The translations under genes and the position numbers were made by a program. A stretch of DNA of 64,000 bases from contig CATOSZ010000001.1 of the NCBI GenBank assembly GCA_951812805.1, positions 186,001 through 250,000 of the forward strand, written 5' to 3'. The stretch is from an uncultured Alphaproteobacteria bacterium. Its GTDB lineage: Bacteria; Pseudomonadota; Alphaproteobacteria; GCA-2731375. This document shows positions 4,472 through 47,927 of this stretch, in pieces. Each line of letters opens with the position of its first letter. Positions within the stretch are counted from its first letter, which is position 1. The notes beneath the pieces are model-generated. The model was not told the origin of the DNA, made no database searches, and saw only the letters and a program-made list of their open reading frames with translations.

Positions 4472-4972
4472 TAAGACGGCCTCGGTCAATTCGGCAAGCG
4501 TGCGTTCCCGCTCGATCGCCGCGGCCTCGACGTTCACGTTGATCGCGCGCACGGAGGCGCACTTCGCCTCGAAACCGTAGTAACGCACCATGTCCTGCTG
4601 GTAGGGGATGAACTGGTCCAGCATGGTGAGGCTGGTGAAGCGATGGCCGAGCTGGCAGGCGAGCGCCATGCTCGATTCCGAGATCGAGACGACGGGGATC
4701 GACAGCACCTCGCGCAGCGCATGGATGCCGACATTGCCGAAACCGGCGAGCACGACGGCGTCGAAACTCTCCTCGCCGACGCGGCGGCGCACCGCTTCGA
4801 TCATGTGCGGCGCGCTCATGTAGTCGCCGTAAGCCGAGTCGATGTTGCGCGTGCCGCCGGGCGACGCCATGCCGACGATTTCGGTGCCCTCGGCCGCGGC
4901 GCGCCGGGCCGAACGTTCGATCACCTCCAGCACGATTCCGGACGTGTTCGGATTGACCACCAGAATACGCAT
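4472..4972 (-). pseudogene. 5' half of interrupted Asp/Glu/hydantoin racemase-family gene
   Basis: These 167 codons begin MRILVVNPNTS, the classic N-terminus of hydantoin/Asp/Glu racemase-family proteins. As it stands the frame reads 19 codons into the IS630-type element and stops at 4415. In the first active-site loop the family normally has Cys (ACFGDPG-like). Here the sequence is VVLAGFGNVGIHALREV, with Gly77 at that position. The protein therefore has only the second cysteine (C182, in the 3' half). Arylmalonate decarboxylase of the same fold also has Gly here, so the ancestral activity may not have been racemisation. The gene is divergent from prpE (126 bases between starts) and was upstream of the FecR-barrel gene. 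Confidence 0.85.
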
Positions 4973-5097
4973 CGCTCTCTCCCCTCGGGTTCGCCCGCGA
5001 CATTCTGGCCCGATCCCTGCTCCGAGGCGAGGGAAAGGCTTGAAAAGCCGGCCCCAGCCGTGAAAATGGAATTTCGCCGAAGGAGGAGATCGAGCCG

Positions 5098-7002
5098 ATG
5101 AGCACCCGCTACGACGAGGCCTATGGCGCCTGGCGCGCCGATCCCGAAGCCTTCTGGGCGGAGGCGGCGGAAGGCGTCGACTGGTTCCGCCGTTGGGACC
5201 GGGTGCTGGACGCGGACCGCGCCCCGCTCTATCGCTGGTATGCGGGCGCCGAGACCAATACCTGCCACAACGCCGTCGACCGCCATGTCGCGGCCGGGCG
5301 CGGCGATCAGCCGGCGGTGATCTACGATTCGCCCGTCGCCGGCAACATCAAGCGGGTCCTGACCTTCGCCCAGCTCCAATCCGAAGTCGCCCGGGCCGGC
5401 GGCATGCTGCGCGCGCTCGGTGTCGCTAAGGGCGACCGGGTCATCATCTACATGCCCATGGTGCCGGAGACGCTGGTCGCCATGCTGGCCTGCGCGCGCA
5501 TCGGCGCCATCCATTCCGTGGTCTTCGGCGGCTTCGCGGCGAACGAGCTGGCGACGCGGATCGACGATGCCAAACCGAAGGCGATCCTCTCCGCCTCCTG
5601 CGGGATCGAGCCCGGCCGTGTCGTCCCCTACAAGCCCCTGCTCGACGGCGCGATTGAGATGTCGAGCCACAAGCCCGAAAAATGCGTCGTGCTGCAACGC
5701 GAGATGGAGACGGCGGAGCTGATCCCCGGCCGCGACCTCGACTGGGACGAGGCGATGGCGGCGGCGACGCCCGCCGATATCGTGCCCGTGGCGGCGACCG
5801 ACCCGCTCTATATCCTCTACACCTCCGGCACCACCGGCATTCCGAAGGGCGTGGTGCGCGACAACGGCGGCCATCTGGTGGCGCTGAAATGGTCGATGAA
5901 GAACATCTACGACATCGACCCGGGCGAAACCTATTGGGCGGCGAGCGACGTCGGCTGGGTCGTCGGCCATTCCTATATCGTCTATGCGCCGTTGTTCCAC
6001 GGCTGCGCCACCATCGTCTACGAGGGCAAGCCCGTCGGCACGCCGGACCCGGGCGCCTTCTGGCGGGTGATCTCGGAACATGGCGCCGCCGCCCTCTTCA
6101 CCGCGCCGACCGCCTTCCGCGCGATCAAGAAGGAAGATCCCGAAGGCGCGCTGATTGGGAACTACGACCTCTCCAAGTTCCGCACCCTGTTCCTCGCCGG
6201 TGAGCGGGCGGACCCCGACACCCTGCAATGGGCGGAACGGATCCTGGACCGCCCGGTGATCGACCATTGGTGGCAGACCGAAAGCGGCTGGCCGATCGCC
6301 GCCAACTGCATGGGCCTCGGCCAGTTCCCGGTGAAGCACGGCTCCTCCACCAAGGCGGTGCCGGGCTACGACATCCAGGTGGTGGACGAGCAGGCGAAAC
6401 AAGTGCCGGCGGGCGAGACCGGCGCCATCGTCGTCAAGCTGCCCCTGCCGCCCGGCTGCCTGCCGACGCTCTGGCAGGCCGACGACCGCTATGTCGAGAG
6501 CTACCTGGAAGAGTTCCCCGGCTACTACAAGACGGCGGACGCCGGCTATCTCGACGAGGACGGCTACGTCTTCATCATGAGCCGCACGGACGACATCATC
6601 AACGTCGCCGGCCACCGCCTGTCGACCGGCGGCATGGAGGAGGTACTGTCCGCCCACCCGGACGTCGCGGAATGCGCGGTGATCGGCGTCGCCGACCAGC
6701 TGAAGGGCCAGGTCCCGCTCGGCCTCGTGGTCCTGAAGTCGGGCGTGACGCGCGGCGAGGGCGAGATCTGCCAGGACCTGGTCGGCATGGTCCGCGGCCA
6801 GATCGGCCCGGTCGCCTCCTTCCGCACCTGCGCCGTCGTCGCCCGCCTGCCGAAAACCCGCTCCGGCAAAATCCTGCGCGGCACCATGCGCCGGATCGCC
6901 GACGGCGAAGAGTGGTCGATGCCGGCGACGATCGACGATCCGGTGATCCTGGACGAGATCACGGGCACGTTGGGCGAGGTCGGGTATCCGGGGAAGGGGT
7001 GA
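5098..7002 (+). CDS. prpE: propionyl-CoA synthetase (acetyl-CoA synthetase family)
   Basis: A 634-residue AMP-forming acyl-CoA ligase that activates propionate (and possibly acetate) to its CoA thioester. The N-terminal ACS domain is followed by the AMP-binding P-loop YILYTSGTTGIPKG, the WWQTESGWPIA adenine-binding motif, the hinge region MSRTDDIINVAGHRLSTGGM, and the C-terminal lysine motif LPKTRSGKILRGTM. The lack of a long acetyl-CoA-synthetase N-terminus and the THAVV-like start favour PrpE over Acs. A strong AAGGAGG lies upstream of the ATG. No methylcitrate-cycle genes are adjacent, so propionyl-CoA probably enters metabolism elsewhere. Substrate choice between propionate and other short acids cannot be settled here. 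Confidence 0.88.
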   Translation: MSTRYDEAYGAWRADPEAFWAEAAEGVDWFRRWDRVLDADRAPLYRWYAGAETNTCHNAVDRHVAAGRGDQPAVIYDSPVAGNIKRVLTFAQLQSEVARAGGMLRALGVAKGDRVIIYMPMVPETLVAMLACARIGAIHSVVFGGFAANELATRIDDAKPKAILSASCGIEPGRVVPYKPLLDGAIEMSSHKPEKCVVLQREMETAELIPGRDLDWDEAMAAATPADIVPVAATDPLYILYTSGTTGIPKGVVRDNGGHLVALKWSMKNIYDIDPGETYWAASDVGWVVGHSYIVYAPLFHGCATIVYEGKPVGTPDPGAFWRVISEHGAAALFTAPTAFRAIKKEDPEGALIGNYDLSKFRTLFLAGERADPDTLQWAERILDRPVIDHWWQTESGWPIAANCMGLGQFPVKHGSSTKAVPGYDIQVVDEQAKQVPAGETGAIVVKLPLPPGCLPTLWQADDRYVESYLEEFPGYYKTADAGYLDEDGYVFIMSRTDDIINVAGHRLSTGGMEEVLSAHPDVAECAVIGVADQLKGQVPLGLVVLKSGVTRGEGEICQDLVGMVRGQIGPVASFRTCAVVARLPKTRSGKILRGTMRRIADGEEWSMPATIDDPVILDEITGTLGEVGYPGKG

Positions 7003-33555: not shown

Positions 33556-33846
33556 GGGCTCCCGAAACCCTCATAACGTTCGCGGTAACGCACGGCACGA
33601 GCTGAGCGATGCGCAGTGGCTTGGCCCGTGCGTGCTCCCGGTCATGCAAGTCGACATATCTACCAGATATGGTGCCACCACGCCGGTGAACCCCTAACAC
33701 CTCGCCAGACATTCGTCTATTGCTCCTTTGTGGCGAGATTGAGGCTTTGGCTATTTGCAGCGTTAAACATTGAGTAATGCGGTCCCGCCTATTCTTCTGG
33801 CGATCAGGCGTCTCGGCGGGGGACGCCGCGACGCCGGGGACTCCGG
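33556..33846. promoter_or_regulatory. divergent intergenic region between yebC and the binding-protein gene
   Basis: About 290 bases with no gene. It is less GC-rich than its neighbours and must hold the promoters for the yebC-tol transcript (minus) and the binding-protein/kinase pair (plus). A short palindrome, ATATCTaccAGATAT, is at about 33655-33669. I cannot assign -35/-10 boxes with confidence. Confidence 0.4.
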
Positions 33847-34689
33847 ATGCGTATTCTGATGCTAGCGATTGCGCTTTCGATGTTCGCCGCCTTCGGCGCG
33901 GCACGAGCTGAAACAGTGCGCCTACAGACCGGGCAGGAGTATGTCCCCTACATCGATCACGACCGCGTCGGCGGCGGGCTCTATACGGAGATCATCCGCG
34001 AGAGCTACCGGATGAGCGGTCATGACCTCGCCCTCGAGATCATGCCCTGGAAGCGCAGCTACGCCATGGTCGAAGCCGGCCGGGCCTTGGGAACCTTTTC
34101 CTGGGCCTACAGTGCCGAGCGGGAGAAGCAGTTCCACCTCTCGCCGCCGTTTTTCCGGGGCATCTCCGCCGTGTTCACCAGCCTGGCCTCCCTGGCCAGC
34201 TGGCCGAGTGCCGAGCTGTTGAAACCGTCTCTCGACGGTTTGCGGTTTTGTCTGCCACACGGTTGGACGGTCTCGCCGGTCCTGCGCGACCTGGTCGAGG
34301 CGGGGCGGATCGCGCGCAGTTCCGCGCGCGGCATGCGTGGTTGTTTCGAGCAGCTGGCCCTGCGTCGTGCCGATATCGTCATCGCCGATCTGCTGCAAGG
34401 GCGGCGATGGCAGCTGGCCGTGAACGCGGATGGCCGGGCCGGGGGCAAGGTCGAGGTCGGGGCCGAGAAAGGGGCGACCGTGCGCATGCTGTCAGCGCCG
34501 CTGCTGCCGAGAGGCACGTCCCATATCCTCTTTGCACGCACGCCGGCCGGCAGCGGCGCGCGGGAAAGCTTCGCCCGCGGTCTCGCGAAGATTCGCGCGA
34601 ACGGTACCTACGATGGAATCGTGACGAAATACTTTGCGGAAATCGACGACCTGACGCGAACGGCGATCCTGTCCAGGCTGGGTGAGTGA
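33847..34689 (+). CDS. periplasmic solute-binding protein (SBP family 3-like)
   Basis: A 280-residue protein with a signal peptide (residues about 1-21, ending FGAARAETVRLQTG) and the layout of amino-acid-type periplasmic binding proteins: YVPYIDHDRVGGGLYTEIIR, VEAGRALGTFSWAYSAERE and the closing region FARGLAKIRANGTYDGIVTK. No ABC permease or ATPase is nearby. Its stop overlaps the ATG of a histidine-kinase-like gene (TGATG), so the two are translationally coupled. That suggests it delivers a ligand signal to the sensor rather than feeding a transporter, an inference from context. Confidence 0.82.
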   Translation: MRILMLAIALSMFAAFGAARAETVRLQTGQEYVPYIDHDRVGGGLYTEIIRESYRMSGHDLALEIMPWKRSYAMVEAGRALGTFSWAYSAEREKQFHLSPPFFRGISAVFTSLASLASWPSAELLKPSLDGLRFCLPHGWTVSPVLRDLVEAGRIARSSARGMRGCFEQLALRRADIVIADLLQGRRWQLAVNADGRAGGKVEVGAEKGATVRMLSAPLLPRGTSHILFARTPAGSGARESFARGLAKIRANGTYDGIVTKYFAEIDDLTRTAILSRLGE

Positions 34690-36782
34690 TGTCGCTCGGG
34701 GCCAGCAGGGGCGCGGCGGCCGGCGTGGGCGTCGACGACGAGGCGCGTCTGCTGGATCATCGGGGGTGGCGCAGCCCGCTGGCCCGCAGAATCGTGGCGC
34801 TGACGGTGGTCTTCAGCTCGTTGATAACCCTCGCCGCGACGGCATGGCAGCTGTTCGGCGACTACCGGTGGGAACTCGACGGTATCGAGACGCGGGTCCA
34901 CGCCATCGAGCGCAGCCATGTCCCCGCCCTCGTCGAAAGCCTCTGGGTTCTGGACGATGTCCTGGTGAGCGCGCAGATCGACGGCCTGCACCACGAACCG
35001 GTGATTGCATCCGTGCTGGTCGAAGGCGTCAACGGGCGACAGTGGCGCGTGGGTCGGGCCGACGACGGGTCCTATATGCGCTTCGAGATCCCGCTCGTGC
35101 GGACCGAGGCGGGCAGGACGCATGTCCTGGGGACGTTGCATCTGGCCGCCGGTCTCGACCGGGTGTACCGCCAGTTGCTGCGGAAGGTCGGAATCATCCT
35201 TCTCGGGAACGGCGCGAAAACGTTCCTGGTCGCCGGCTTCATCCTGTTTCTGTTCCATCGCCTCGTCGGGCGGCACCTTCGTGACCTGGCCGATCACGCC
35301 GGCGCGCAAAGCCCGATGGAGGCCGCGACTCCGTTGGTCCTGGCGGGCCGCAGAGCGAGGGCGGGCGAAGGGGACGAGCTGGACCGCCTGGTCACCGCCT
35401 ACAACGAAATGCTGGCGCGCGGGAGCCGCCATGCCGACGAGCAGCGCGCGGCGCGGCGCGAAATTGCGCGGCGCGGGGAGGCGCTGCAGATCGCCAATCG
35501 GGACCTCGAGGGGGAAGTCGAAGAACGGCGCCGGGCCGAGGCGGCGTTGCGCCGCCGCTCCGAACGGCTCGACCTGCTGAACGAGGTCACCTCGCTCGCC
35601 AATCGGAATCAAGCCTTCGAAGCGGCGGCGGAATCGATCCTCGCCGCCATTTGTAGGGCATGCGGTTGGCCCGTGGCGATGGTCCGCCCCTTGAATGCCT
35701 GGGATGCGAAGCTGCCGGCCTATGATCTCGTCTTCCTGCATCCGGGTGAGGACGGCGGGCTCGGCTTCGACGAAAGAGCGTTCGACACGGTCGAGCACAT
35801 GGCCTTCGCGAGGCTGTTCAAGGGCCTCGCCATGGATCGTCCGGTTCCGCTCGCGCCGGGCGACCTGGCGGTCCTGGACCTGCCGGACGGCATCGATCTC
35901 GACCGGGGTCTCCTGGTGCCGATCGTGGCCGGCGAGCGTGGCCTCGCCTGGGCCGTGTTTCTTTGGTACGGCCCGTTGGATCCGGACAAGGAAATGCTCG
36001 ATATCCTCCGGCTCGCCGGCGTTCAGCTCGGCCATGTCTTCGAGCGCGACGAGGCGGCATGGGAAATGAGCGAGCAGTCGGTGGTGCTGAATCGCTCGAA
36101 AACGTTCCTCGAACAGGTCGCCGAGATCATCTCCCTGGACCTGCGCGCGGTCTTCCAGCAACTGACGGCGGCGACGGCGACGCATGCGACCGGTGATCGC
36201 GATACGCGGTCCGTCGACAACGCCATCCGCTGGCTTGGAAACATCATTCACGGCGTCGAAAGCATTTCCAAAACAATCCAGGACGACGCGCATTTCGATT
36301 TGCTGCCCCTCGACGACGCCCTCGACCAGGTCCGTGCCGAGCTGGCCGAAACGGCTTGGGGCTGCCACCTGGTGATCGATGCCGATCCGCTGCCGACGGT
36401 GTTCGGCGATATGTCGATGCTGCGCCGGCTGTTCTGGCACCTGGCCGAGAACGCGGTCCGTTTCCGCCATTCGACCCGCTCGCCCCGGCTCGAAATTCGG
36501 GTCGACTACGAAACGGATGCGACCCTCGACGAGATGGGCAGCGAACTTCCGGTGGTGGCGCTGGCGTTCTCCGACAACGGCGTCGGCTTCGACGAAGCAA
36601 TCGCCGAGCAGATCTTCGTTTCGTTCCGACGCGCGCCCGACGCAGACGAACGCTCTGGCGACGGGGTGGGGTTGGCGCTCTGCCGTCAGATCGTGGAACG
36701 CCATGGCGGCCAGATCAGTGGCGAAGGGCACCCGGGCGAGGGCGCGACGTTCCATGTCGTCTTGCCCTATTACCTCATGTGA
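34689..36782 (+). CDS. sensor-kinase-like protein lacking the phospho-acceptor histidine
   Basis: A 697-residue protein: membrane segments at about 33-53 and 167-190 bracket a periplasmic sensor, followed by a HAMP-like region and coiled coil (about 245-298), a GAF-like region (about 299-455), a dimerisation helix pair and an HATPase domain (about 570-695). The ATPase boxes are intact: FWHLAENAVRF, FSDNGVGF, SFRRAP and SGDGVGLAL. At the H-box the usual S-H-D-L-R-A reads S-L-D-L-R-A, with Leu483 in place of His, and no other His is positioned nearby. So it may be a pseudokinase or use another residue. It overlaps the upstream binding-protein gene. No response regulator adjoins. Confidence 0.8.
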   Translation: MSLGASRGAAAGVGVDDEARLLDHRGWRSPLARRIVALTVVFSSLITLAATAWQLFGDYRWELDGIETRVHAIERSHVPALVESLWVLDDVLVSAQIDGLHHEPVIASVLVEGVNGRQWRVGRADDGSYMRFEIPLVRTEAGRTHVLGTLHLAAGLDRVYRQLLRKVGIILLGNGAKTFLVAGFILFLFHRLVGRHLRDLADHAGAQSPMEAATPLVLAGRRARAGEGDELDRLVTAYNEMLARGSRHADEQRAARREIARRGEALQIANRDLEGEVEERRRAEAALRRRSERLDLLNEVTSLANRNQAFEAAAESILAAICRACGWPVAMVRPLNAWDAKLPAYDLVFLHPGEDGGLGFDERAFDTVEHMAFARLFKGLAMDRPVPLAPGDLAVLDLPDGIDLDRGLLVPIVAGERGLAWAVFLWYGPLDPDKEMLDILRLAGVQLGHVFERDEAAWEMSEQSVVLNRSKTFLEQVAEIISLDLRAVFQQLTAATATHATGDRDTRSVDNAIRWLGNIIHGVESISKTIQDDAHFDLLPLDDALDQVRAELAETAWGCHLVIDADPLPTVFGDMSMLRRLFWHLAENAVRFRHSTRSPRLEIRVDYETDATLDEMGSELPVVALAFSDNGVGFDEAIAEQIFVSFRRAPDADERSGDGVGLALCRQIVERHGGQISGEGHPGEGATFHVVLPYYLM

Positions 36783-42055: not shown

Positions 42056-44767
42056 TCAGCCGCTCCGTCCATCGAGGCATGTTCGAATCGTCGTGAACAG
42101 GCGTTTGGCATCGATCGGCTTCGAGATATAGGCATTCATGCCGGCTGCGAGATATTTTTCACTGTCACCCGACATGGCATGCGCCGTCAGCGCAATGATC
42201 GGTATGTCGTTGTTGCCGGCGCGAATTTCACGGGCCGCGGCCAGCCCATCCATCAGCGGCATCTGGATATCCATCAACACGAGATCGTGGCGGCCGTCCC
42301 GCAAGGCTTGAATGGCGTCCTCGCCGTTCGCGACGACATCGATCGCGTGGCCGGCCCCTTCGAGCATCGCCCGGATCAGGATCTGATTGTATTCGTGGTC
42401 CTCGGCCACCAGCACGCGCAGTGCCGGCCCCGCCCCGGTCGCCGCCCCCGTCCCGGGCGTCTCGGGCGGCGTGGGCGCGGCATGGGCCCGGGCATCGCCG
42501 GCCACGGCGCCGAGGCGCACCGTGAAGACGAAGCTCGAGCCTTCCCCCGGACGGCTGGTGGCGTCGATCTCGCCACCCATCTCGCGCACGATATTGCGGC
42601 AGATCGCCAGGCCGAGGCCGGTGCCGCCGAACTGCCGTGTCGTCGAGCTGTCGGCCTGGGTGAATTCCTCGAACAGACCGGGCAGGACGTCCTCCGAAAT
42701 TCCGATGCCGGTATCCGAAACCTCGAACCGCAACTCGTGCCAATCCCCCTGGCGGCCCGAACAGGCGACGCGAAGGGTGACGCTGCCGTCGGCGGTGAAC
42801 TTGAAGGCGTTGCCGAGGAGGTTGTAGAGGACCTGGCGCAGACGCAGCAGGTCGCCGACGACGCGTGTCGGCACGTCGGGCGCGACGTCGACGGCGAAGG
42901 CGAGATGGACTTGCTCGGCGCGGCCGCCCCAGATCCGGCGCACTTCGTCGAACAGGTGCGTGAGATTGAAGTCGTGCGCCTCCAGCGTCATGTGTCCGGC
43001 TTCGATCTTCGAAATGTCGAGCACGTCGGAGATCAGCTGCAGCAGGATCTGGCTTGAGGAATCGATATTGTCCGCATAGCCGGCGAGCCGCGGATCCACG
43101 CCGGCGCCGGTCAATTCCTCCTTCAGGAGTTGGGCGAAGCCGACCACGGCATTCAGCGGCGTCCGCAACTCGTGGCTCATGTTGGCGAGGAAGGCCGACT
43201 TTGCCTGGCTCGATTGTTCGGCGCGGGCCTCGCTGCGGCGCAGCGCCTCCTCGAATTCGATCCGCTCGGTGACGTCGATCAGGATGCCGCCGAAGCCCGT
43301 CGGCCCGCCCTCGTCGATGATCGGGAATTTCGTCAGCACGAAGGTGCGGTCGGGATCGTCGCCGACCGGAATTTTCAACTCCTGGCTCGTCAGCTTCCAG
43401 TCGCTCAGGATCGACCGGTCACTCTCCGCATAGCGCTCGGCGCGTTCCCTGGGATAGAGGTCGTAGACGCCCTTGCCGCGGATGCTGTCCCCATCGACGC
43501 CGAACCAGTCTTCGAACTGCTTGTTGATCAGCAGGTAGCGCGCCTCGGCGTCCTTGAGGAAGAGGGCAGCCGGGATGTGGTCGATGATCGCCTTCAGCCG
43601 CCGCTCGCTTTCCTGCAATCGCTCTTCCGCGAGCTGGCGGTGCGTGATGTCGCTGCCCGTGCCCCGGTAGCCGCGGAAGACACCGTCCTCGCCGAAGACG
43701 GGCTTGCCGTTGATCGACAGCCAGACGATGCTGCCGTCGGACAGGGTGCGGGGATGGTTGAAGGCGCGAAACGGCCGATGATCGGCGAGGATTTGCAAAT
43801 GTTCCTGCCAGGCCGCCGGATCGACGTCCGGGATGCCGGTCTCCTCGCGGGTTTTGCCCAACAGGGCCTCTTGCGGCACGCCCGTCAATTCCGTGAAACG
43901 GTCCGAGAAGTAGGAAAAGCGGCAATCCGCATCCATTTCCCAGAACCAGTCGGAAGTCGCGTTGGCGAAATCCTGAAACCGCGTCTCCCGCTCGCGCAGC
44001 GAAACCCGGTAGGCGTTGGAGACGCGGGCCAGCAGGTCGTTGACCGCCGCCGCCATTTCGCCGATCTCGTTGCGTCCGATATCGTCGACGACGTAATGGT
44101 CGGCGTTCTCGTGGTCCTGTTCGGCCGCGACCAGCATCTCGCGCAGACCCAGCATCGGCCCCAGGATCAGCCGATGCAAAATTACCGCCGTCATCACGCA
44201 GACGAAGAGGGAGATCACCAGAACCAGGCCGACGATACGCAGCGTGAAGGCCAGGAGTTCGCCCGCGACATGGCTGGTATCCAGTCGGACGACGGCGCTC
44301 AACGGGCGCGCCAGGGTCTGGGCGGAAAAGGCCACATCGATACGTTTCGCATCCACGACCCGCGACCCAGCGCCGCCGTGGGCTTCGATGTCGGCGGCCG
44401 GCACTTCGCCGAAACTGTCGAGCACCCGGCCCTCGCCATCCCGCAGAGCGGCACCCTTCAGCGCGGTAAAATCGGCCAGCACCTCGTCGAAGCGCCATTC
44501 GCCGTCCGCTGATCGCCCAACGGCGCCCTTTACCTCTGCCAATCCGACCTGCCGGACCGTCGCCAGCAGGTCGCGTTCATAGTTGAAGTAGGACGGGATC
44601 AGGATGACCCCTTCGATGATGACGATCGAAATGAAGACGAAGAACGTGATCCGCCAGCAGATGCGGCAGCGAAACCGCTCCCGCAGCCACGCGCCGCCCG
44701 TGGGCCCCGGTCTGGCGAGGCCGGAACGCCCTGGGGCGGCCAGGTCTTCCTGCGCGGATCGTGACAT
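42056..44767 (-). CDS. hybrid sensor histidine kinase with two PAS domains
   Basis: A 903-residue membrane kinase: membrane segments at about 40-60 and 173-197 around a periplasmic domain, HAMP (about 198-250), two PAS domains (about 262-385 and 386-512), HisKA with the phospho-acceptor His532 in [12 protein letters not shown], HATPase with DTGIGI and GGTGLGLAI, and a C-terminal receiver ([30 protein letters not shown]). All key residues are intact. This contrasts with the histidine-less kinase upstream in the window. The start at 44767 is the Met after the divergent region facing DUF1194; the target pathway is unknown. Confidence 0.9.
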
Positions 44768-44893
44768 CACTCCCTCACGTTTCGGTGAGAAGCAACAGCT
44801 TTGCTTAAGATTGGTTAACGTTTCGTGAAGACGCAAGTGCTGAGGGCGTGGCACCATACTTTCTAACCTCGATCGCGGAGGTACGCAGCCGAA

Positions 44894-45640
44894 ATGGTCG
44901 ACCGATTCATACGCTTCTGTCTTGTCGCCCTGTCGTCGCTGCTGGCGGCCCCGGCGCTGGCGGGACCCGTATCGGCGGTCGATCTGGCGATCGTCGTCTC
45001 GCTCGACCGTTCGCGTTCCATCGACGATGTCGATGCGGTCGCACAGATCGACGGCCTGTTGCACACCCTGCGCCATTCCGAGTTTGCGGAGGTCGTGGCC
45101 CGCGGGCGCCATGGTCGCGTCGCCCTCTCGGTGGTGACCTGGTCGAGCTTCGGCCACCACGAGGTCATCCTGCCCTGGATCGCCATCGCCGACCGTCGCG
45201 ACGCCCGCCGCGCGGCGATTGTGCTGGAGGCGGATACGGCGCGGCGAAAGACGGCGCGCCATGGCTCGCTCACCGATCACGACCTTGCCATCGAGGTCGG
45301 GCTCGGACAGCTCGGGCGGCTGCCCTGGCGAACCGCCGCGCGCGTCATCAACGTCGTCGCCGACGGCGTCGGCAACATTCGCCGGATGAGCGCCATCGAT
45401 CGGGACGACGCGCTTCGCCGAGGCGTTACCATCAACGGCCTGGTGATGGCCCATGGGGCCGAAGCCCCCCGCCTGGTGGAGTACTTCCGCCGCGAGGTCG
45501 TCGGCGGCCCGACGTCCTTCGTCCTGGTCAGCCACACGGCCGAGGATTTCGCCGCGGCCATGCTGCGCAAGATGGTGCGGGAGATCGTCCTCTTGCGCCC
45601 GGCGCCCGGACGGTCGAGGATTCCCCGAACCGAGGGCTGA
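44894..45640 (+). CDS. DUF1194 (von Willebrand-like) exported protein
   Basis: A 248-residue protein with a signal peptide (about residues 1-23, ending [12 protein letters not shown]). The core [20 protein letters not shown] is a MIDAS-like DxSxS variant (D-R-S-R-S), and [10 protein letters not shown] and [12 protein letters not shown] are other VWA-fold landmarks. Members of DUF1194 are common in alphaproteobacteria and have no assigned function. It is 16 bases upstream of a penicillin-acylase-family gene, so the two may be co-transcribed. Confidence 0.8.
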
Positions 45641-45656
45641 GCCGGAGGGCCGAGGC

Positions 45657-47927
45657 ATGGTGGACGCGACCGAGGAAATCCCACTCACGGGCCTGGACCG
45701 GCCGGTCGAGATCCTGATCGACCAATGGGGCATCGCCCATATCTATGCGGAGACCCAGGCGGACTGTTTCTTCGCCCAGGGCTGGAACGCCGCGCGAGAC
45801 CGGCTCTGGCAGATCGATCTTTGGCGCAAGCGCGGCCTTGGTCTGCTGGCCGGCGATTTCGGGCCCGACTACGTCGCCCGGGACCGGGCGGCGCGGTTGC
45901 TGCTCTATCGCGGCGACATGGCGGCGGAATGGGCCTGCTACGGGGCGAACGCCAAGCCCTGGACGGCGGCGTTCGTCGCCGGCATCAACGCCCGCATCGG
46001 CGAGGTGGAGGCCAGGCCCGAATTGTTGCCGGAGGAGTTTCGCCTGCTGGACACCAGGCCCGCGCGCTGGCGGGCCGAGGACGTGGTCCGCATTCGCAGC
46101 CATGCCCGCATCGGCAACCTCGATTCCGAGATCCGCCGCGCCGCCGTCACCGCACGGCACGGCCCGGCGGCGGACGCCGGGCGCAAGCGCCTGCGGCCCG
46201 AATGGCGGCCCGCCGACCTCGAAGGCGTGGCGCAGGGCGAGATCCCGCCCGAGGTAATGGCGACCTATCAGCTCGGAACCGAGCCGCCGGTCTTCGGCGC
46301 GCTGCCGGCGGTGGGAGAGGACGGGCGTGAAGGTCGGCCCGACGGGTCCAACGCCTGGGCCCTGCGGCCGGAGCTCAGCGAGACCGGTCGCGCCCTGTTG
46401 GCGAGCGATCCGCACCGGGTCCACGGCATGCCCTCGTTGCGTTACATGGTGCATCTTTCGGCGCCGGGGCTGGACGTCATCGGCGCGGGCGAGCCGGCGG
46501 TCCCCGGCGTCTCCCTCGGCCACAACGAGCGGCTCGGTTTCGGCCTGACCATCTGGCCGGTCGACCAGGAGGATCTCCGCGTTCTCGAGCTGCACCCCGA
46601 CGACGCCGGCCGCTACCGCGAGGGCGAGGGGTGGGGGAAAATCGAGGAGGTGCGCGAAACGATCCCGGTGCGCGGCGAAGCGGCGCGGGAGATCACGCTC
46701 GCCTACACGCGCCATGGACCGGTGCTGCATCACGATGGCACGGCCGGGCGGGCCTATGCGCTCCGCACGGTCTGGAGTGAGCCCGGCACCGCGGCCTACC
46801 TCGCCAGCCTGAACTATATGCAGGCGGAAAGCTGGTTGGACTACCGCCGCGCCCTCGAAGGCTGGGGTGCGCCGCCGACCAACCATGTCGTCGCCGACGT
46901 CGAGGGCAACATCGGCTGGGCCACCGCCGGCATGGTGCCGCGCCGCGGAAAGGGCGACGGCCTGCTGCCGGTACCGGGCGACGGCAGTCACGAATGGGAC
47001 GGGTTTCTGGCGGCGGCGGAAAAACCGAACATCTTCAACCCCACGTCCGGCTGGGTCGCCACGGCAAACCAGTTCAACCTGCCGGGGGATTTCGACTGGC
47101 GTCGCCACCGGACGAATTTCGAGTGGCCCGATCCCGCGCGCCACCGGGTGATCACGCGCGCGCTCGAGGCCAAGCCGCGCCATTCCTTCGCCGATATGCA
47201 GGCCCTGCAAACCAGCTTTCACGCCCTGCCGGCGGAACGGGTCGTCGCCCTGCTCGCGGCGGCGGGTGTGAGTGGCACCGCCGCGGATCTGTTGCGCGCG
47301 TGGGACTGCCGGTTGAGCGCGGACTCGGGGCCGGCTGCGCTCTTCGAGATCTGGTGGGGGCGCTATCTGGTGCCCGAGGTGCTGGCCGCCGCCTCCTCGC
47401 CCGAGGTGCAGGCGTTGGCCCTCGCGCCCGACACCGAGCTGGCGTTGGATCTGCTGGAGGCGGGCCTACCCGGGCGGGACGCCCTGCTGGCGGAAACGCT
47501 GGAGCGGGCCTGGCGGGATACCGTCGCCCTGCTCGGCGCGGCGCCCGAGCGTTGGGCCTGGGGCCGGTTGCATCACGGTTACTTCGCACACCCGCTCTCC
47601 GCCCTGCTGGACGAGGACGGGCGCCGGCGCTTCGATGTGGGCCCCGCGCCCAAGGGCGGCAGCGGCCTCACCGTCAACAACAACGGCTACCGGGCCGAGG
47701 ACTTCCGCGTCATGCACGGGGTGACTTGGCGGATGCTGCTCGACGTCGGCAACTGGGATGCCTGCCTCACCATCAACGCGCCGGGGCAGTCGGGCGATCC
47801 GGCCGACCCGCACTACCGCGATCTCTTTTCGCTCTGGGCGCGGGAGGCGTATGTGCCGATGACCTATACCCGCCCGGCCGTCGAAGCCGCGGCCGAACGC
47901 CGCCTGCTGCTGACGCCGACGGCGTGA
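45657..47927 (+). CDS. penicillin-acylase-family N-terminal-nucleophile hydrolase
   Basis: A 756-residue Ntn hydrolase. The autoprocessing nucleophile is Ser231 in [15 protein letters not shown], after an A-chain of about 230 residues, and typical downstream signatures include [27 protein letters not shown]-like [14 protein letters not shown] and [15 protein letters not shown]. The substrate is an amide, perhaps a beta-lactam, an acyl-homoserine lactone or a peptide-like compound. There is no recognisable signal peptide, unlike many members, so it may work in the cytoplasm. The start at 45657 has GGAGGGCCGAGGC upstream. Confidence 0.85.

Follow-up and report, generated by a model that had tools for sequence, protein, structure and literature searches.

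A periplasmic binding protein gene coupled to a CHASE5 receptor without its phospho-acceptor histidine in an uncultured alphaproteobacterium

The window, a 64,000-nucleotide stretch of contig CATOSZ010000001.1 (assembly GCA_951812805.1) from an uncultured alphaproteobacterium, carries two coupled genes on its plus strand, to which all positions below refer unless stated. The first (33847–34689) encodes a periplasmic binding protein of family 3 (280 residues), and the second (34689–36782) a CHASE5 receptor of 697 residues, built as a sensor histidine kinase in which leucine takes the place of the phospho-acceptor histidine. The open reading frames overlap by one base within TGATG: the stop codon TGA of the binding-protein gene occupies 34687–34689, and its last base also starts the ATG of the receptor gene at 34689. 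The product of the first gene matches SBP_bac_3 (PF00497) at 33.0 bits, above the cut-off of 26.4, and its translation begins with what appears by eye to be a signal peptide (MRILMLAIALSMFAAFGAARA). Both the stop–start overlap and the periplasmic binding protein had been proposed in a preliminary description of the locus, and both are borne out.

The receptor is composed of a membrane segment, CHASE5, a second membrane segment, a coil, a region with no Pfam match, a dimerization and histidine phosphotransfer (DHp) region and a HATPase_c catalytic and ATP-binding (CA) domain, in that order. CHASE5 (PF17149, 58.8 bits, cut-off 27; residues 58–163, 34860–35177) was not named in the preliminary description and is the key to the family of the receptor. 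It is modelled with predicted local distance difference test (pLDDT) values of 87–97 in ten-residue blocks. Long predicted helices flank it on both sides, as in CHASE5 receptors, their membrane nature being judged by eye. The first membrane segment (about residues 33–56, 34785–34856) was placed by hydrophobicity within one long predicted helix, 30–86, and the second (about residues 167–190, 35187–35258) lies within a predicted helix, 157–206, and holds a KTFLVAGF-like family motif. The cytoplasmic region that follows the coil (35556–36053) had been described as GAF-like. This assignment is by eye and stays unconfirmed, as the region has no Pfam match and no sequence match in the PDB, and its pLDDT is mostly below 50 (mean 38.7). 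The degenerate DHp region (about residues 455–540, 36051–36308) was delimited by alignment, with predicted helices at 435–497 and 504–531 of modest confidence. HATPase_c (PF02518, 69.7 bits, cut-off 26.4) covers residues 574–694 (36408–36770). Pfam finds no HisKA match, no phytochrome domain and, at E values up to 1, no PAS domain in the receptor.

The loss of the acceptor histidine is seen in a DHp–CA alignment that sets the window protein against 51 related rows drawn from alphaproteobacteria, this genome included. Histidine fills the acceptor column in 50 of the 51 relatives, with a gap in one, a fragment; only the window protein has leucine there (Leu483; CTG, 36135–36137), in agreement with the substitution first described, and it thus lacks the acceptor histidine of HisKA domains. 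The H-box proline, present in 45 of the 51 relatives, is also replaced (Val488; GTC, 36150–36152). The two stretches align without gaps, SLDLRAV in the window protein against SHDLQEP in bacteriophytochrome-like kinases, and Asp484, the acid that follows the acceptor position, is kept. Because CTG is two base changes from either histidine codon and GTC two from any proline codon, one wrong base explains neither substitution, and this cause is ruled out. A shifted acceptor histidine is ruled out as well, since the aligned relatives share one acceptor column, and the remaining histidines of the window DHp, which follow helix 1 or lie within helix 2, match no acceptor column. The preliminary description had proposed an H-box alignment as a check, with a conserved histidine at a shifted position in orthologues as the refuting case; no such case was met among the relatives examined, whose histidine occupies the aligned column or a normal H-box.

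Among these relatives the window receptor stands out, the other kinases of the family keeping their acceptor histidine. CHASE5 kinases were scored in three overlapping samples. All 18 kinases of the class and family samples whose DHp could be read carry the histidine, as do all 70 kinases from a scan of GTDB and all 17 of a phylum sample that have a readable DHp. Three candidates per genome were scored in the class sample and two in the phylum sample. Four of 25 fetched loci (L084–L087), with weak CHASE5 scores, were dropped because the window CHASE5 region did not detect them. Of the 21 loci kept, one is a GGDEF protein, L090 is truncated at a contig end, and L075, which reads in two frames, stands outside the histidine count with its second frame left out. 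Some CHASE5 receptor genes encode GGDEF/EAL proteins and others kinases: the 80 loci from GTDB include ten of the former type, one of them frameshifted, and the other 70 are the kinases scored. Their H-box was found by pattern in 68 and by eye in L165 and L218, which have other acceptor-histidine motifs. From the phylum sample, L255 and L256 were left out, having the histidine and no CHASE5 match.

The genome itself has 68 HATPase places; leaving aside the window gene, all 67 others were retrieved. Sixty have a readable DHp, with the acceptor histidine in 59 (by pattern or eye) and tyrosine in one, L102; the other seven were judged by eye to be CheA, gyrase-like proteins and fragments. With histidine in nearly all relatives and in all CHASE5 kinases scored, its loss is rare among these sequences and appears derived in the window gene. 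L102 (region of G000:C3:2052768–2053094) is a second kinase of this genome without the acceptor histidine. Its tyrosine lies in SYELRSPL, it has several PAS-like stretches or repeats, and we presume that it may be an orthologue of DivL. At three further loci of the genome (L109, L117 and L125) the HATPase is a fragment preceded by little or no DHp; these may be kinase genes that have broken or domains that have been split.

The two parts of the kinase module have not diverged equally. Conservation was scored against 35 histidine-bearing rows of the same type (36 rows in all). Of the 31 conserved DHp columns the window protein retains 10, a smaller share than in any other row; elsewhere the fraction runs from 0.45 to 1.0 (mean 0.81). 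Of the 53 conserved CA columns it retains 37, which falls within the spread of the other rows (0.60 to 0.96, mean 0.82). The imbalance between DHp and CA is −0.38 in the window protein, at the edge of the values seen, against a mean of −0.01 (standard deviation 0.12) in the others, and the DHp has diverged more strongly than the CA. Asn588 and the residues of the G1, F and G2 boxes are kept in the CA (DNGVGF, F643/F646, GDGVGL), so that the N, G1, F and G2 boxes of HATPase_c are recognizable, with changes at Asn584 and Lys591.

In the predicted structure, 10 of 16 blocks from residue 541 on exceed a pLDDT of 90, and the DHp helices are modelled with values of 54–66 (residues 451–500) and 64–77 (501–530). 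A fold search, which reached DHp–CA only, gave as best match the kinase domain of RpBphP2 (PDB 8f71; Z 22.0, 2.6 Å over 189 residues, 29% identity), spanning model residues 496–695. DivL (4q20) was matched with Z 17.9 and 6.1 Å over 213 residues. Bacteriophytochrome-type HisKA kinases such as RpBphP2 thus have the DHp–CA fold closest to that of the window receptor, which differs from them in having neither a Pfam phytochrome domain nor the acceptor histidine. The DHp–CA module is probably still able to fold, and it may bind ATP.

The pairing of a CHASE5 gene with a binding-protein gene recurs elsewhere. The GTDB set (L161–L240) consists of the best 80 of 87 CHASE5 relatives, retrieved with two short patterns drawn from five sequences, and 77 of the 80 loci have at least 900 bases upstream. 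A local profile places an SBP_bac_3-like open reading frame directly upstream on the same strand at 29 of the 80 loci, and a divergent adjacent one at seven more, with gaps of up to about 550 bases; the background is 11 SBP_bac_3 domain hits in the 472 kb at distances above 1.5 kb. The local profile is looser than Pfam, which confirms 18 of the 36 adjacent frames at E 0.001; among ten of them taken as a smaller sample, PF00497 reaches E 0.01 in five and exceeds its cut-off in three. Among the 44 other loci, one neighbour was scanned in 20, chosen partly by sight. Nine of these neighbours are binding proteins and eleven are not or have no assignment. The nine comprise one SBP_bac_3 (L190), five NMT1_3 (L179, L182, L184, L207 and L210; for example L182:4094–5122) and three Peripla_BP_4 (L206, L217 and L225; for example L206:4201–5292). 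At least 27 of the 80 CHASE5 loci therefore have a Pfam-confirmed adjacent binding-protein gene, from three families.

Close kinship is common among the 80, as within the three Peripla_BP_4 loci, from Paraburkholderia, and within the five NMT1_3 loci, from marine gammaproteobacteria, so that the loci counted are not independent events. The background was measured for SBP_bac_3 only, so that pairing with NMT1_3 and Peripla_BP_4 has no enrichment figure. The class and family sample has an adjacent SBP_bac_3-like frame at 7 of 21 CHASE5 loci, and two of these seven adjacent frames (L077 and L092) were also seeds of the local profile. As a weak control, such a frame occurs within the 3.8 kb of one of this genome's 67 other HATPase loci; only 20 of the 67 stretches hold at least 900 bases before the kinase frame. 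The occurrence of CHASE5 genes beside SBP_bac_3-like genes far above background, together with the two other families in places, suggests that CHASE5 reads binding proteins, although the published test of one such pair, described below, was negative.

Individual loci show related arrangements. L110 (G000:C3:1420068–1423903) is a kinase of this genome with a normal acceptor histidine and an adjoining SBP_bac_3-like frame. L075 (G323:C53:1500–9044) is a CHASE5 gene with a binding-protein-like frame directly upstream, and its kinase part continues in another frame, possibly broken. At L171, from an uncultured Shewanella, the gene divergent from the CHASE5 kinase (4686–5411, minus strand) encodes a SieB superinfection-exclusion protein (PF14163, 152.5 bits).

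The five proteins flanking the window pair that were scanned with Pfam include YebC, a pyridine-nucleotide-disulphide reductase, a class-II DAHP synthase and a luciferase-like monooxygenase, the fifth being QPRTase-like at 24.1 bits, under the cut-off of 27. Neither ABC genes nor a response regulator gene is found among these five, as the preliminary description had claimed for both. Adjacent ABC genes are usual for binding proteins that serve transport, not for those that serve sensing. The missing regulator gene is weak evidence for a pseudokinase and was rejected as proof of one, since 46 of the 70 histidine-bearing CHASE5 kinases are likewise non-hybrid and, by local profile, lack a regulator gene in the 1.5 kb around them. 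The nearest kinase seen to the pair is a hybrid frame at 42056–45733 on the minus strand, with an H-box, an ATPase and a receiver recognized by eye and a listed start that looks too far upstream. The G+C content of the pair is slightly below that of the left flank and about that of the right; it is uninformative as a sign of transfer, since the pair resembles the right flank.

Inactive sensors of this kind are already known, and to our knowledge histidine-less sensor kinases with studied functions are few. DivL, the best known, reads a response regulator and not a nutrient. The DivL of Caulobacter crescentus and the window receptor are alike in being alphaproteobacterial proteins whose DHp–CA module lacks the acceptor histidine. 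According to PMC4211667, DivL has neither kinase nor phosphatase activity, binds ATP weakly and acts as a sensor that binds DivK~P; its acceptor position holds tyrosine, or alanine in Magnetospirillum magneticum, and it has PAS domains. It controls CckA, as stated in PMC9491836. Compared with DivL as there described, the window receptor has leucine in place of tyrosine or alanine, CHASE5 in place of PAS domains, and a binding-protein partner gene. These features set it outside the DivL family, and this genome holds the separate tyrosine-type protein, L102. In PMC9491836, a ChrS pseudokinase of Corynebacterium glutamicum, which a frameshift in the CA produced during laboratory evolution with the histidine kept, promotes signalling via HrrS to ChrA, directly or indirectly; native ChrS forms heterodimers with HrrS, and none were seen for the truncated form. 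By that account, ChrS offers a precedent for a catalytically dead sensor that alters signalling through a paralogous kinase. Its CA is broken and its histidine kept, whereas the window receptor is the reverse in nature, with the histidine gone and the CA largely kept.

Lacking its acceptor, the receptor cannot carry out the usual kinase reaction at this position, and the DivL and ChrS precedents favour a receptor that acts on other proteins. On balance, the pair probably forms a two-gene, lineage-specific sensor, in which the binding protein controls a pseudo-histidine-kinase that acts on another kinase or a regulator in the manner of DivL. The periplasmic binding protein would bind a small ligand and dock on CHASE5, and the conformational change would travel along the second membrane helix and then by way of the coil and GAF-like region before reaching the DHp–CA module, which cannot be phosphorylated at the usual site. 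By analogy with DivL, the receptor, its gene presumably under selection, would most likely steer a partner kinase or response regulator by binding rather than by its own phosphotransfer. The kept CA motifs allow for an ATP-dependent role, in which the receptor would differ from DivL. The ligand-sensing pseudokinase first proposed is the interpretation that fits best, its action through partner kinases being putative.

Several findings weigh against this reading. No orthologue was found in 14 other genomes of the family, seven of which match at E 1e-20, each in part. The same holds for 384 other genomes of the class, with three candidates scored in each, where ten reach E 1e-30, all over the CHASE5 half only. 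GTDB contigs, scanned with the receptor alone, hold no close relative, and 21 records of a plasmid collection match in part, without any reaching 80% coverage. An orthologue would be the sign that the histidine-less state is maintained. The DHp–CA imbalance has a near equal (−0.37) in L002, a histidine-bearing kinase of the same genome. The ATPase called intact in the preliminary description keeps Asn588 and its G1, F and G2 residues, but the N-box residue Asn584 is changed to histidine and Lys591 to arginine. The closest relatives of the window binding protein are eight binding proteins with nothing receptor-like in their 1.5-kb flanks, and the pair may thus not have co-evolved. A further objection comes from a two-hybrid test of another CHASE5 receptor; such a cytoplasmic test differs from the native setting. 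Among the literature matches listed for CHASE5, only PMC11113362 bears on the relation between CHASE5 and binding proteins. It describes a CHASE 5 domain in AruS (PA4982) of Pseudomonas aeruginosa and a binding protein, PA4985, encoded nearby; the two did not interact whether or not ligands were added, and in the authors' conclusion neighbouring kinase and binding-protein genes need not function jointly. AruS and the window receptor share a CHASE5 ligand-binding domain and a binding-protein gene in the neighbourhood; AruS differs in forming a two-component system with AruR, and PA4985, which did not interact with the ligand-binding domain, belongs to SBP_bac_8. AruS and PA4985 are direct evidence against inferring contact from neighbourhood.

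Among the other explanations, early decay is the main rival, and we consider it somewhat unlikely. The acceptor would have been lost, signalling would have ceased, and the CA motifs would persist for lack of time. Occurrence in one genome only, within the searches made, agrees with this, as does the loss of most conserved DHp positions. In the 13 other family genomes with yebC, the upstream sequence retrieved (1.5 kb, about 0.5 kb in one) contains no binding-protein gene, pointing to a recent or labile arrival. In a comparison of window 33556–33846 and L263–L275, ten of these 13 genomes have before yebC a gene that we take by eye to be YmdB-like; in this genome the binding-protein–receptor pair takes that place. 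With no full-length relative and no binding-protein gene before yebC in those 13 genomes, the pair is thus lineage-specific as far as searched. However, the receptor runs to 697 codons without a stop and is coupled by one base to an intact binding-protein gene, and uniform decay would not give the contrast between 37 of 53 conserved columns kept in the CA and 10 of 31 in the DHp. The one-base coupling also argues against the two genes being neighbours rather than partners, with the binding protein serving a distant transporter or another receptor. This we think unlikely: the best relatives of the binding protein have no CHASE5 gene nearby, and AruS and PA4985 showed no interaction (PMC11113362), but binding-protein genes stand beside many CHASE5 genes, against a background measured for SBP_bac_3 only.

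The remaining alternatives keep the receptor catalytically active. It could act without the usual histidine, with its CA working in trans on the histidine of a partner, through another acceptor residue, or as a phosphatase only. The kept Asn588, G1-, F- and G2-box residues and Asp484 would suit such activity, yet the H-box proline and most conserved DHp positions are changed, as are the N-box Asn584 and Lys591, no other histidine aligns with the acceptor column, and ATP binding is only putative. The different acceptor residue raised as an option in the preliminary description finds no apparent support in the sequence, and this explanation is the least probable of those considered. We regard as only slightly less doubtful an ATP-using pseudokinase steered by the binding protein, whose CA would phosphorylate or nucleotide-gate a partner kinase in a mixed dimer, with CHASE5 as a general docking platform for binding proteins from several families. 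If true, this form would reverse both DivL, with its weak ATP binding, and the ChrS variant, with its broken CA, and a nutrient signal would enter the pathway of another kinase through the mixed dimer.

The initial observation at this locus is right, and the interpretation of the pair as a sensor acting through other proteins is plausible and unproven. A pseudokinase coupled to a single binding protein would show that a ligand signal can reach a two-component network although the sensor itself transfers no phosphate. The association of CHASE5 genes with those for binding proteins makes testable what CHASE5 senses, and is a more useful lead than the single receptor.

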